NCBI RefSeq assembly: GCF_900184895.1
Contig: NZ_FXZK01000006.1
Coordinates: 124,001 to 188,000 of the forward strand
DNA from: Flavimaricola marinus
GTDB lineage: Bacteria > Pseudomonadota > Alphaproteobacteria > Rhodobacterales > Rhodobacteraceae
DNA: 64,000 nucleotides
Direction: 5' to 3'
Numbering within the stretch: position 1 is the first letter of the stretch; each line of letters starts with the position of its first letter. Made by a program: the position numbers and the translations under genes. A model generated the notes under the pieces. That model saw nothing but the letters and a program-made list of their open reading frames with translations, made no database searches and was not told the origin of the DNA. Positions 11,471-50,425 of this stretch are shown here, one piece after another.

Positions 11471-12985
11471 ATGCTTGAAGGATTGATGCTAGGCCTTTCT
11501 GCGGCCGTCACCCCATTCAACCTGATCATGGTCGTCATGGGATGCGTCATCGGCACATTGATCGGTATGTTGCCCGGTCTGGGACCGATGTCGATCATTG
11601 CTATCATGATCCCGGTTGCGATCGGCATCGGCGATCCAACCGCCGCTCTGATCCTGCTGTCTGGGGTTTACTACGGAGCGATTTTTGGCGGGTCGACCTC
11701 GTCGATCCTGCTGAACGCACCCGGAGTCGCGGGAACGGTCGCCACCGCCTTTGATGGGTATCCGATGGCGCGCAAGGGCCAAGCGGGAAAGGCCCTGACC
11801 ATTGCCGCAGTTGCAAGTTTCGCCGGCGGAACGATCGGTGCCATTCTCTTGATGATCTTTGCGCCCGCGCTTTCATCCGTAGCCCTGCTGTTCCATTCGG
11901 CTGAATACTTTGCCTTGATGGTGGTTGGCCTTTCGGCAATTGCCGCCTTTGCGGGAACGGGGCAGGTGGCCAAGGCGCTGATGATGACGATCCTCGGCCT
12001 GATGATGGGGACCGTTGGCGAGGGTGCGCTGTCCAATATGCCGCGTTTCACCTTTGGCATGATGGAACTGCAGTCAGGGTTTTCATTCATAACACTTGCG
12101 ATGGCGATGTTCGCATTGCCGGAGGCTCTGTTTCTCGTCATGAACCCGGCGCGCGCAGCCACAGGTGACAGCGGCAAGATTACCGGTATGCGTATCACCG
12201 GGGCTGAGGCGCGAAGCATTGCGCCGGTCATCGGGCGCCAGTCAATTCAAGGGTTCTTCATTGGCGTGCTCCCCGGCGCAGGGGCGACGATCGCGTCATT
12301 TTTGGGCTACGCGGTGGAGCGAAATATCGCCAAGGGAGCGGAGCAGGAGGAATTCGGCAAAGGCTCGATCAAAGGACTTGCCGCACCCGAGACCGCCAAC
12401 AACGCGGCCTGCACTGGATCATTCGTGCCTTTGCTAACCTTGGGAATTCCCGGATCGGGGACGACCGCGATCCTGCTGGGTGCGCTGTTGGCTCTCAATG
12501 TCACACCGGGTCCACGTCTCATGACCGATGAGCCACAAGTGTTCTGGGCTGTTATCATCTCGATGTATATCGGGAACCTGGTCCTGTTGATACTGAACCT
12601 GCCACTCATCCCCTACATCGCCAAAATCCTGACGATCCCTCGGACGTTCCTGATTCCGTTCATCCTGTTCTTCACGTTGATGGGTAGCTACCTCGGACAG
12701 AACAACTCGACGGAATTGTTGATCCTTGTTGGGTTCGGCGTGATCGCGACGATCTTGCGTTTCGCCGACTATCCGCTCGCTCCGCTGCTCATCGGCTTTA
12801 TTCTCGGCACCATGCTGGAGGACAACTTTGGCCGCGCAATGCAGCTTTATCGCGGCTTTGGTTTCCTGTTGGAGCGCCCAATGACACTGGCACTCCTGGT
12901 GTTGGCGGCGCTTCTGGTGGTGCTGCCGAGTTTCCGAGCTTACCGGGCACGGCGGCGCGCCGAGGGTGTGGCCGACGGTGACTGA
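11471..12985 (+). CDS. tctA: Tricarboxylate transporter large membrane subunit TctA
   Basis: This 504-residue protein, with about a dozen hydrophobic segments, is the channel-forming subunit of the tripartite tricarboxylate transporter. Family signatures are visible: GMLPGLGPMSIIA near residue 37, GAIFGGSTSSILLNAPG near 72, and the second-half repeat GVLPGAGATIASFLGYA and TLGIPGSGTTAILLGAL. Length and hydropathy are normal for the family. It is the last gene of tctCBA and is followed by a strong hairpin. Confidence 0.95.
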   Translation: MLEGLMLGLSAAVTPFNLIMVVMGCVIGTLIGMLPGLGPMSIIAIMIPVAIGIGDPTAALILLSGVYYGAIFGGSTSSILLNAPGVAGTVATAFDGYPMARKGQAGKALTIAAVASFAGGTIGAILLMIFAPALSSVALLFHSAEYFALMVVGLSAIAAFAGTGQVAKALMMTILGLMMGTVGEGALSNMPRFTFGMMELQSGFSFITLAMAMFALPEALFLVMNPARAATGDSGKITGMRITGAEARSIAPVIGRQSIQGFFIGVLPGAGATIASFLGYAVERNIAKGAEQEEFGKGSIKGLAAPETANNAACTGSFVPLLTLGIPGSGTTAILLGALLALNVTPGPRLMTDEPQVFWAVIISMYIGNLVLLILNLPLIPYIAKILTIPRTFLIPFILFFTLMGSYLGQNNSTELLILVGFGVIATILRFADYPLAPLLIGFILGTMLEDNFGRAMQLYRGFGFLLERPMTLALLVLAALLVVLPSFRAYRARRRAEGVADGD

Positions 12986-27411: not shown

Positions 27412-28593
27412 ATGCTTGCCAACGGTCGTCCCTATCTGGCCATTCCTGGCCCATCTGTCATGCCCGACCGTGTGCTGAATGCGATGCACCGGGCATCGCC
27501 GAATATCTATACAGGTCAACTACATGAGGTGACTCACAGCCTTATACCGGACCTGAAATCGCTGGCGAGGACCGACGGCAATTGCGCGATCTACATCGGC
27601 AATGGTCATGCCGCCTGGGAGGCTGCCTTGGCCAACATCCTGAGCCGGGGAGACCACGTTCTGGTGCTGGCCACGGGCCGGTTCGGACATGGCTGGGCGG
27701 ACATTGCGCGGGGCATGGGTATCAATGCCGAAGTGCTTGATTTCGGACAACAAAAAGACGTCGATCTGGAACGGGTCGAGGCTGCTCTGGCTGCCGATAC
27801 GGGGCATCGGTTCAAGGCGGTGCTGATGGTCCATGTGGACACCTCGACCAGCGTGAAGAACGATGTTCCGGGGATGCGCGAAGTGCTGGACCAGAGCGGG
27901 CACCCGGCGCTCTTGTGCGTTGATTGTATTGCATCTTTTGCCTGTGACCGGTTCGAGATGGACGCCTGGGGCGTCGATGTGATGGTCTCTGCCTGCCAAA
28001 AGGGGCTGATGACTCCGCCGGGGCTTGGCCTTGTCTATTTCAACGAAAAGGCTGATTCGGCGCGTGAGACGGCGGATTTGGCGACGTCCTATTGGGATTG
28101 GCGTCCGCGCGTCGATCCGGAACAATATTATCAGTTTTTCAACGGCACCGCTCCGACCCATCACATCTATGGCCTGCGCGAGGCGCTCGACATGATCGCG
28201 GAGGAGGGGCTCGAGGCGGTCTGGGCGCGGCACGAAAGGCTCGCCCGCACCATCTGGGCCGCGTTTGACGCCTGGGGGCGCGAGGGGCAGATGGCGCTGA
28301 ACATTGCCGACCCGAACAAGAGATCCCATGCCGTTACATCGGCTTACGCCGGACCGGGCGACGGCGACAGGCTGCGGGAGTGGTGCGAGCGGGTGGCCGG
28401 CGTGACGCTGGGCATCGGGCTGGGCCGAGAGCCTGCGGATGCCTATTTCCGCATCGGCCACATGGGCCACGTCAACGCGCACATGGTGCTGGGCGTCTTG
28501 GCGGTGATGGATGCCGGGCTGAAGGCGCTGGAGATTCCGCATGGAGTCGGCGCGTTGGAGGCGGCGGCAAAGGTGGTCGCGGAGGCGCGTTAA
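27412..28593 (+). CDS. Class V aminotransferase (serine/alanine-glyoxylate type)
   Basis: This 393-residue PLP enzyme is similar to serine-glyoxylate and alanine-glyoxylate aminotransferases. The PLP lysine lies in VSACQKGLMTPPGL (near residue 200), and the start PYLAIPGPSVMPDRVLNAM is typical of the family. It probably transfers the amino group of serine or alanine to glyoxylate in C2/one-carbon metabolism. The ATG at 27412 follows GAAAGG; a longer frame would overlap the divergent phosphatase start. No glyoxylate or serine-cycle genes adjoin it. Confidence 0.88.
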   Translation: MLANGRPYLAIPGPSVMPDRVLNAMHRASPNIYTGQLHEVTHSLIPDLKSLARTDGNCAIYIGNGHAAWEAALANILSRGDHVLVLATGRFGHGWADIARGMGINAEVLDFGQQKDVDLERVEAALAADTGHRFKAVLMVHVDTSTSVKNDVPGMREVLDQSGHPALLCVDCIASFACDRFEMDAWGVDVMVSACQKGLMTPPGLGLVYFNEKADSARETADLATSYWDWRPRVDPEQYYQFFNGTAPTHHIYGLREALDMIAEEGLEAVWARHERLARTIWAAFDAWGREGQMALNIADPNKRSHAVTSAYAGPGDGDRLREWCERVAGVTLGIGLGREPADAYFRIGHMGHVNAHMVLGVLAVMDAGLKALEIPHGVGALEAAAKVVAEAR

Positions 28594-28619
28594 CGCTCTG
28601 CCGACGCGCCAAAAACCCG

Positions 28620-28671
28620 TTTCGGTGTGACGTCGGTATTGCGTCGGTACGGCGTAGGTGTCGTTTTCGGT
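28620..28671. repeat. Helically phased TCGGT repeats
   Basis: The core TCGGT (once TAGGT) occurs at 28622, 28633, 28644, 28655 and 28667, so four steps are 11, 11, 11 and 12 bases. The full units are near-copies of CGTCGGTANNG. They lie in the convergent gap between the class V aminotransferase and the small membrane protein. Function unknown. Confidence 0.6.
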
Positions 28672-28724
28672 GCTCTATGGCCTGTCGTGAGTGTTGCCAC
28701 AAGGCACGCCGCCGAGACGGGCCG

Positions 28725-28907
28725 TTAACCTCGCCGCAGTCGTGCGCCGATCAGAATCGCCCTGTCGATGGCAAAGGCCGAGAGCAGCACCCAGACAAAT
28801 CCCGCCACCACCGCGATCGTCCAGAACGACATGAACAGGATCATTCCGAGCGTCACCAGAAAGGCTTGGGTAAAGTCGGGGGCGGGCTGGCGGTTGTCAT
28901 TTCGCAT
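28725..28907 (-). CDS. Small membrane protein of 60 residues
   Basis: A short frame begins MRNDNRQPAPDFTQAF and has one long hydrophobic stretch (about residues 15-50), possibly two tight helices around GFVWVLLSAFA, and ends in a basic tail (RLRRG). It starts 62 bases after the HisC-like gene ends on the same strand. I know no function for it. The polar start, clean hydrophobic core and basic end make a real gene likely, though the ribosome site is weak. Confidence 0.55.
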   Translation of the reverse strand: MRNDNRQPAPDFTQAFLVTLGMILFMSFWTIAVVAGFVWVLLSAFAIDRAILIGARLRRG

Positions 28908-30114: not shown

Positions 30115-30178
30115 GAGGCTGGCAAGGGGGCGCTGCCCCCCGCCTGCGGCGTCCCCCGGGATATTTTCGACCCAAAGA
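30115..30178. repeat. Probable dispersed intergenic repeat of Rhodobacteraceae
   Basis: Between valS and the HisC-like gene lies a G/C-run segment followed by CCCGGGATATTTTCGACC and CAAAGAAG. I recall very similar strings as frequent intergenic elements in this family. It contains a small hairpin GGGGGC-GCT-GCCCCC. Only one clear copy is seen in this window, so the repeat status rests on memory of other genomes. Confidence 0.4.
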
Positions 30179-30182
30179 AGGA

Positions 30183-49540: not shown

Positions 49541-50425
49541 TCACGCCTGAACCAGTTGCACCTGACCCAGATCGAGCCCGCTGATCCCCGGCAACACCGC
49601 GATCGGGTTGCCATTGGCCATCAGCGTGGTGCCGGTTTCGTCCTCTTCGATGCTGAGGTCGGGGGCGGTGTCGCCGTCGTAGACCACGACGATCGTGTCT
49701 TCGCCGGTTGCGAAATCCTCGACCGTTGCGGTGCCGATGGACCCCGCCTCGAGGTTGAAGATGTCGTCGCCTGTGCCGCCGTTCATGTGGTCGAAGGCCC
49801 CGCCGAGCAGGACGTCTTCGTCGGCCCCGCCGTTGAGGTAGTCCCGTGCCGCCACGGTTTCGGAGCCTCGCCCGTCGATCAGATCATCGCCGGATCCGCC
49901 GTGCAGCACGTCTTCGCCCGCGCCGCCGAACAGGCTGTCGTCGTCGAGCGATCCGTGCAGCGTATCGTCGCCGTCGCCGCCGAACAGGGTGTCGTCGCCG
50001 CCACCGCCGTTGAGCGTATCGCTGCCCGTCCCACCTGCGATCCAGTCGTCGTCGACATGCCCGAAGAGGTCGTCGTCGCCGCTGCCACCGTAGAGGCTGT
50101 CGTCGTCGCGTCCGCCGTGCAATTCATCGCTGTCTGCCCCGCCGCCGATGATGTCGTCGCCGTCGTTGCCGTCGAGAATGTCGTCCCCGGAAAGCCCGGC
50201 CATGACGTCCCGATCTTCGCCGGCCTGTTGGTAATCCGCCCCGCCGCTGCCGAGGTAGAGCCCGTAGGGATCGTTCTCGTCGTCGTTGAGATCGTTGAGA
50301 TCGCGCAGTGGCGGATCATCCTCGGCATCGGCGGGCGGCCCGTCACCTTCGGTTTCGGTGGATGGCGAGGGCAGCATGGCCATGCCGGCGATGGCGATGC
50401 CAAGGAGGGAAAACAGAGCGAGCAT
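49541..50425 (-). CDS. RTX-repeat calcium-binding protein with N-terminal hydrophobic segment
   Basis: This is a very acidic 294-residue protein. It starts with a short hydrophobic stretch (MLALFSLLGIAIAGMAML) that looks like a signal or membrane anchor, then an acidic linker, then about ten Gly-Asp nonapeptide repeats (residues about 75-220, for example GGSGDDDLFG and GGDGDDTLHG), and a C-terminal domain ending in LVQA. The N-terminal segment is unusual for type I secreted RTX proteins and is shared by a Rhodobacteraceae subgroup. No enzyme domain is recognisable. The ATG at 50425 follows GGAAAAG; upstream in-frame sequence is not gene-like. Confidence 0.82.
   Translation of the reverse strand: MLALFSLLGIAIAGMAMLPSPSTETEGDGPPADAEDDPPLRDLNDLNDDENDPYGLYLGSGGADYQQAGEDRDVMAGLSGDDILDGNDGDDIIGGGADSDELHGGRDDDSLYGGSGDDDLFGHVDDDWIAGGTGSDTLNGGGGDDTLFGGDGDDTLHGSLDDDSLFGGAGEDVLHGGSGDDLIDGRGSETVAARDYLNGGADEDVLLGGAFDHMNGGTGDDIFNLEAGSIGTATVEDFATGEDTIVVVYDGDTAPDLSIEEDETGTTLMANGNPIAVLPGISGLDLGQVQLVQA

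Follow-up and report, generated by a model that had tools for sequence, protein, structure and literature searches.

The phased repeat at positions 28620–28671 of the window, that is, of the whole 64,000-nucleotide stretch of Flavimaricola marinus DNA that was analysed, is one of about 70 such arrays in this genome. We propose that it would be one of as many sites for a small BrnA-family protein that is encoded without the BrnT toxin, and we put the probability that this solo protein binds the arrays, and that its chief task is something else than control of a group of nearby genes, at roughly 0.6. Judged from sequence, binding by the solo protein is very probable, whatever its purpose. Analogy with CdbA of Myxococcus suggests that the protein organises the chromosome, for which we see about even odds, a little better once binding is granted. 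The computation itself shows the arrays and how widely they occur, shows that one of them precedes the protein gene, and shows that in several lineages the word beside that gene agrees with the word repeated genome-wide.

In the window, the words TCGGT, TCGGT, TCGGT, TAGGT and TCGGT start at 28622, 28633, 28644, 28655 and 28667, with word-to-word steps of 11, 11, 11 and 12, which confirms the spacing given in the preliminary description. Its count of five units holds for the four that are in register, but not for the fifth. Aligned with its sister copies, the array is made of four 11-bp units and a 3′ block (Table 1), and the fifth word, TTTTCGGT, reached by the step of 12, belongs to that block and not to the repeat. 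The sequence TTTTCGG lies immediately 3′ of 20 of 68 F. marinus arrays, and among 38 copies from this genome the position of unit 1 is most often taken by TGCGGTATGN. A 36-column matrix built from the same 38 copies has a single match in the window, this array, at which Tandem Repeats Finder reports only 2.6 copies. The gap is convergent, as had been described, with flanking gene ends at 28593 (+ strand) and 28725 (− strand) according to a crude codon-usage gene caller that was trained on the F. marinus genome and applied to all genomes. From its translation we take the left neighbour to be aminotransferase-like; for the right neighbour the list of open reading frames (ORFs) also allows a longer frame that ends at the same place and overlaps the next gene.

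Table 1. Features at and around the array (window positions).
Feature	Position	Strand	Basis or remark
Array unit 1, TTTCGGTGTGA	28620..28630	+	Column consensus of 38 own copies
Array unit 2, CGTCGGTATTG	28631..28641	+	Phased-pair scan, column consensus
Array unit 3, CGTCGGTACGG	28642..28652	+	Phased-pair scan, column consensus
Array unit 4, CGTAGGTGTCG, last in register	28653..28663	+	Column consensus
3′ block, GTGTCGTTTTCGG	28658..28670	+	Holds most of the fifth word, off register by one base
Left neighbour, presumed aminotransferase-like gene	27412..28593	+	Ends 26 bp before the array
Right neighbour, small predicted membrane-protein ORF	28725..28907	−	Converges on the array
GTTAAC upstream of array	28589..28594	.	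Overlaps end of + strand gene
GTTAAC downstream of array	28724..28729	.	Overlaps end of − strand gene

Three other features of the window were recorded in passing. Positions 12509–12636 (− strand) match the Rfam entry Ruegeria Cis8_sRNA at 84.8 bits. Another dispersed repeat, of ~55 bp, lies at 30126–30180 between two genes that we read as histidinol-phosphate aminotransferase and valyl-tRNA synthetase, and has many copies, at roughly 76–93% identity, in G001 (a genome of the same genus) and G081. Tandem repeats with periods of 27 and 54 bp occupy 49899–50118 and presumably represent a pattern familiar from RTX-like calcium-binding proteins.

The window array is beyond chance: in the F. marinus genome the phased pair GTCGGTNNNNCGTCGGT occurs 44 + 53 times against 0 + 0 for the reversed control, and the single unit CGTCGGTANNG 50 + 66 times against 55 + 47, which is about equal, so that it is the phased pair and not the single unit that is enriched. 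The possibility, raised in the preliminary description, that the element has no other copy and no conserved phasing is clearly contradicted by these pair counts, and the genome-wide search proposed there has returned some 70 arrays. The pair matches group into 69 separate arrays on 13 of the 56 contigs. A pattern of three units (24 bases), in which as many as 3 mismatches were tolerated, gives 68 matches against 0 for its control. Of the 68 arrays, 62 lie between predicted genes, and some of those scored inside genes may be miscalls of the gene caller. None of the 68 cores are identical and the flanks are unrelated, no more than 12 short matches between flanks being found at E ≤ 0.01. Across the 38 aligned copies the GTCGGT columns are invariant, partly because the copies were picked by patterns containing GTCGGT, and the spacer columns are free. 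Non-identical cores, unrelated flanks and a constant word with free spacers together give these arrays the look of selected binding sites. In addition, GTTAAC occurs within 160 bp upstream of 22/68 own copies and 29/92 copies in other genera, against an overall frequency of 0.01–0.02 per 160 bp, and within 160 bp downstream of 7/68 and 27/91, respectively.

The GTCGGT word is patchily distributed. Among 147 relatives (146 genera), only F. marinus itself (97 pair matches), G056 (18) and G081 (13) are rich in it, the rest having at most 2. The same-genus genome G001 has zero pair matches, and its orthologous gap is without an array; a palindromic GTAAGGTGGGTT-type repeat stands there instead (L152). 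A three-unit pattern scan of genome contigs matched at least 110 stretches. Of these, 80 carry titles: 64 name Rhodobacteraceae, Paracoccaceae, Rhodobacterales or genera that we assign to these groups, one is an alphaproteobacterium, and 15 are from other groups and hold monotonous repeats. The non-monotonous titled matches are from Roseobacter-group or related organisms, and the matches listed include GTCGGT arrays of Shimia, Roseovarius, Salinihabitans, Pseudooceanicola, Sulfitobacter, Boseongicola and others. Twenty of 110 stretches, namely the 15 monotonous titled ones and five of the 30 untitled, were dropped before gene contexts were counted. Two genomes illustrate the family outside F. 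marinus: Pseudooceanicola spongiae (G147), with 55 + 54 pair matches against 0 for the reversed control, and Pseudohalocynthiibacter aestuariivivens (G148), with 11 + 25 against 1 + 2.

A candidate protein emerged from a comparison of the genes flanking 176 arrays, among which one small gene recurs: in three genomes it is preceded, at 71–88 bp, by an array of like orientation. The F. marinus gene lies outside the window, at C16:23948-24301 (contig C16), with its array 87 bp away. Its product matches BrnA_antitoxin (PF14384), and conserved P and W residues are found in the N-terminal part of the solo homologues. When two BrnT queries, both Pfam-confirmed, were used in tblastn, BrnT-like ORFs were detected at 0/40 solo loci, as opposed to 9/11 toxin-linked control loci; the labels solo and toxin-linked had been assigned by eye from the protein sequences, prior to this test. 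The 51 loci compared are 40 of 51 homologue matches, 11 weaker ones having been left out, plus 11 genomes from a broadened model. An array precedes the solo gene in F. marinus and in other GTCGGT genomes, and many homologues elsewhere have 11-bp arrays of other words at the same place. Within 250 bp upstream, a lag of 11 is strictly the best of lags 7–20 in 31/40 solo genes (in the other 9 it is not) against 1/11 toxin-linked genes (Fisher p = 6e-5); in G157, lag 11 wins by one match only and no array is visible.

The gene and the arrays do not always occur together. The broadened model found a homologue in 11 of 12 chosen GTCGGT genomes (G147 to G158), the exception being G153, and none in G001; the family genomes given to it were mostly those negative in the first search, and its results do not cover the locus L255, which was also given to it; the absence counts are therefore not an unbiased sample. 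Weak matches, of about 36 bits, came from G051 and G011, and G051 has no solo homologue above 37 bits. Arrays are present without a homologue at E ≤ 1e-4 in G056, G081 and G153, which relic arrays after gene loss, or a draft gap, would explain. As for the fold, BrnA antitoxins are ribbon-helix-helix (RHH) proteins, and the solo protein is probably RHH on the strength of its Pfam match to that family; its structure prediction is poor (pLDDT 55.5), and a profile search returned no solved structural relative. In one genome only, G012 (L311), a PIN-domain gene (PF13470) comes after the solo BrnA-like gene and may encode a toxin-like partner.

The odds that we give the best explanation rest on genome-wide word predictions. 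Words read beside the solo gene were searched across the 147 genomes, and in six genomes the arrays that these gene-adjacent words predict were indeed found genome-wide, whereas in three others support was weak or absent. GTATGG was found as predicted in G068 (93 + 93) and G050 (10 + 12), and also in G075 (12 + 15), G064 (7 + 8) and G040 (5 + 2), other genomes having at most 1 match. ATGCAC was found as predicted in G033 (17 + 35), and also in G085 (15 + 16) and G064 (16 + 7), other genomes having at most 2; its prediction was weak or failed in G048 (only 4), G024 (2) and G012 (0). CGTGCAC was found as predicted in G074 (12 + 6) and G019 (12 + 14), failed in G012 (1 match), and appeared further in G066 (7 + 4), G039 (7), G071 (3 + 3) and G051 (2 + 2), with at most 1 elsewhere. 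TATGAC was found as predicted in G072 (23 + 32), every other genome having at most 3. The reversed-pattern controls are not always zero, giving 1 + 3 for F. marinus in the GTATGG scan and 1 + 1 for G019 in the CGTGCAC scan. For G075, G085 and G066 the order was the reverse: enrichment was found first, and the word was then seen directly before the solo gene. Five further words were read beside the solo gene in G065, G036, G067, G002 and G078. Twenty regions were sampled in G072, G033 and G068, and each of the 22 arrays in them is intergenic. As a separate observation, many TATGAC arrays of G072 (L396–L405) are paired with an inverted partner that faces them from beyond a short spacer, and they are often preceded by a GAAAAGCGGG-like block.

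Protein and word vary together most clearly in the GTCGGT lineage. When 42 proteins are placed on a tree, those 14 that go with GTCGGT fall into a single group (93/91), and this word needs 1 change against a shuffled mean of 12.0 (0/500 as low), and the nearest relatives of the clade have the words GTAGGAG, GTCGG[AC] and GTCGG[AG]. All ten word classes together need 17 changes against 25.7 shuffled (0/200 as low), with labels that are coarse and hand-assigned, partly from upstream sequence and partly from genome-wide matches, and with one genome, G064, that has both GTATGG and ATGCAC. These two words are scattered on the tree (ATGCAC, 5 changes, shuffled 4.8; GTATGG, 4, shuffled 3.9), and CGTGCAC is clustered only slightly (4 against 5.7); the scatter of ATGCAC and GTATGG indicates that, beyond the GTCGGT clade, a change of word is not simply tied to descent of the protein. 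In the putative DNA-reading β-strand, KVTLXLD, X is Y in 14/14 GTCGGT proteins and 0/28 others, the strand of G019 being VTLRID. The tie between this tyrosine and the GTCGGT word is suggestive; since residue and word share one clade, it is not independent evidence.

The gaps that hold arrays are 49 convergent, 99 tandem and 23 divergent, against a background of 66, 276 and 128 (chi-square p = 4e-6). The counts cover F. marinus, P. spongiae and other genera and omit arrays in predicted genes or with a neighbour missing (6/68, 5/39 and 18/93, respectively) as well as the 15 of G056; the background consists of gaps of at least 60 bp at F. marinus and P. spongiae loci only. Convergent gaps are enriched about two-fold and divergent gaps depleted, but most arrays sit in tandem gaps, so that the convergent setting stressed in the preliminary description is favoured and not essential. 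Within tandem gaps, orientation is biased in F. marinus (28:11, p = 0.009) and weakly in G056 (9:2), and unbiased in other genera (20:22) and in P. spongiae (11:7); the bias in F. marinus counts against plain DNA sites, which predict none. The proteins encoded beside the arrays are diverse: 110 of them match 161 Pfam families, none found in more than four proteins (14 cut or long proteins were skipped), and among 176 arrays 29 pairs share at least one related neighbour and only two pairs share both. In F. marinus, 43 contigs totalling 0.70 Mb, many of them tiny, hold no array where 11.8 would be expected, and in P. aestuariivivens 22/22 arrays are on the 3.83 Mb chromosome and none on the non-chromosomal part (p = 0.018). 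The arrays look chromosomal, they sit close to the 3′ ends of genes, and the genes next to them are unrelated, features that we count in favour of a role in organising the chromosome. In P. spongiae, the arrays listed (at least 88, covering 4.07 of 4.37 Mb) are evenly spread (KS p = 0.72), with a spacing that fits random (KS p = 0.11). Polar sequences like KOPS were rejected because both orientations occur throughout these listed arrays, and Noc-like avoidance of the terminus because their spread fits a uniform one. Two P. spongiae arrays (L296 and L300) have an identical 50-bp upstream block, and that of L300 adjoins ~6.4 kb in which no genes are called and which may be an rRNA operon.

RHH proteins use a two-stranded ribbon to read DNA. 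We propose that successive dimers of the solo protein would sit one helical turn apart on the four 11-bp half-sites, on one face of the DNA, with each half-site read by the β-strand KVTLYLD, and that the dimers would join into a short filament, which may be able to bend DNA or to bridge it. Through the array just upstream of its gene the protein would control its own level, and the position of that array makes autoregulation probable. At the remaining arrays, as we propose from their intergenic location and their distance from promoters, the protein would act to fold the chromosome or to mark it, and not to switch neighbouring genes. That the protein binds directly and regulates itself, how the filament is built and what it does for the chromosome are all things that we infer from sequence. 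Repeated protein contact with one-turn phasing, as suggested at the outset, has found good computational support in the selected, non-identical copies and in a candidate protein with its own array; the nucleoid role suggested alongside it is the reading that would fit best.

The solo protein could instead be a global transcription regulator, with the arrays as its operators at the ends of a regulon. In favour of this, an array precedes the solo gene itself, a sub-type of array with TTGGACAA is located just before some start codons in F. marinus, and tandem-gap orientation is biased in that genome (28:11). However, divergent gaps, where promoters concentrate, are depleted (23/171 against 128/470), the flanking genes have no common function, and the same gaps seldom recur, as the pair counts above indicate, which makes a regulon unlikely, if worth keeping in mind. 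PhoB/OmpR-type regulators bind 11-bp direct repeats, and operators of this type are not preferred either, given the depleted divergent gaps and the lack of a shared function among flanking genes. Another idea, that the arrays are self-marks separating the chromosome from mobile DNA, or distributed centromere-like segregation sites, draws on their absence from the 43 F. marinus contigs and from the non-chromosomal part of P. aestuariivivens. It also draws on plasmids: a 126-base consensus revealed no array in PLSDB (17 weak records, best E about 1, the lone Rhodobacteraceae record, Alloyangia, matching 28 bases inside a gene), and the F. marinus protein is found on no Rhodobacteraceae plasmid and in no phage at E ≤ 1e-3, a search that diverged homologues would escape and that returned two Salinibacter plasmid records only. 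Furthermore, 3/28 homologues weakly resemble the segregation protein PrgO, one scoring 21.7 bits against a cut-off of 100. Yet no partner is apparent among the small same-strand neighbours of solo genes (eight scanned, one, in G012, being the PIN-domain gene), and the arrays listed in P. spongiae are evenly spread; we regard this idea as rather improbable. Viral spread was rejected, since the 12 viral contigs matched hold mostly monotonous repeats by eye and the F. marinus protein was not found in phages; one IMG/VR viral contig (L279) has a genuine-looking GTCGGT array, perhaps in a prophage or host flank.

An origin of the arrays as copies of some small repeat, mobile or REP-like, is very unlikely, even though they are dispersed, mostly intergenic, lineage-specific and partly flanked by GTTAAC, the orthologous gap of G001 is without an array, and one P. 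spongiae pair does share an identical upstream block. REP or MITE elements would have near-identical copies with shared ends, whereas here 0 of 68 cores are identical and the flanks are unrelated; moreover, other lineages use another word, which matches the word before one gene. The chance that the arrays act as RNA, be it a hairpin, a terminator or a repeated RNA–protein site, appears slighter still. The 5′ CCGAAA and 3′ TTTTCGG blocks look complementary, and the orientation bias in F. marinus would suit a transcript, but the window copy folds no better than its shuffles (z = −0.93 and −1.09 for the two strands), flanks pair no better within than between copies in four sets, orientation is unbiased in other genera, and Rfam has no match at the window array.

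To return to the solo protein, it and the arrays point to an unrecognised, fast-evolving way to mark or organise a chromosome. A bolder version, which we offer tentatively and hold to be less likely than its opposite, is distributed centromere-like marking of Rhodobacteraceae chromosomes, in which a solo RHH protein would act on tens of arrays phased at 11 bp, the word changing with the protein between lineages, so that each chromosome would have its own code for identity, folding and possibly a barrier to foreign DNA. Among the open-access papers listed in our literature searches, none gives an account of such arrays or of solo BrnA proteins in Rhodobacteraceae. If the proposal is true, a large marine family gains a sequence-specific chromosome-organising protein that is now labelled ‘antitoxin’, and with it a natural experiment in which a DNA-binding protein and tens of scattered sites shift specificity together. 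The evolution of regulatory or centromere-like codes could then be tested word by word, with the variable strand residue as the first suspect.

Several known systems resemble parts of this proposal. In plasmid R1, the RHH protein ParR binds parC, which has ~11 bp tandem repeats in arrays of five. The pairing of ~11 bp tandem repeats with a protein that is here probably RHH is similar; however, ParR/parC is a single plasmid centromere with an actin-like motor, whereas here there are tens of chromosomal arrays. The solo proteins resemble BrnA of the BrnT/BrnA toxin–antitoxin system (PF14384), whose profile 28/28 aligned homologues match, but differ from it in the missing BrnT, the conserved N-terminal P and W, and the genome-wide arrays. 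SegB of Sulfolobales is an RHH segregation protein with tens of sites around the chromosome, including sites upstream of its own operon; its site is a 13-bp palindrome that different genera share and that mostly falls within genes, and SegB acts together with the ATPase SegA (PMC12284271). Tens of putative chromosomal sites, one of them upstream of the protein’s own gene, are found here as well; unlike those of SegB, they are direct repeats between genes, with differing words and no known ATPase partner. CdbA of Myxococcus xanthus is an RHH nucleoid-associated protein with many chromosomal sites; its motif consists of direct repeats with 4 bp between them, to which the authors fit binding regions one helical turn apart. 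It has only a minor effect on transcription and a role in chromosome organisation and segregation, it also binds c-di-GMP, and about 65% of its 569 peaks lie outside intergenic regions (PMC7156744). Chromosome-wide direct repeats one helical turn apart recur in our arrays at the level of sequence, a likeness of described features, and the arrays differ in having about four units, in being mostly intergenic, in numbering tens per genome and in a word that varies between genera. As far as they are described in the texts consulted, neither CdbA nor SegB uses intergenic four-unit arrays with a genus-varying word, and the two are the nearest working analogues of the solo protein and its arrays.
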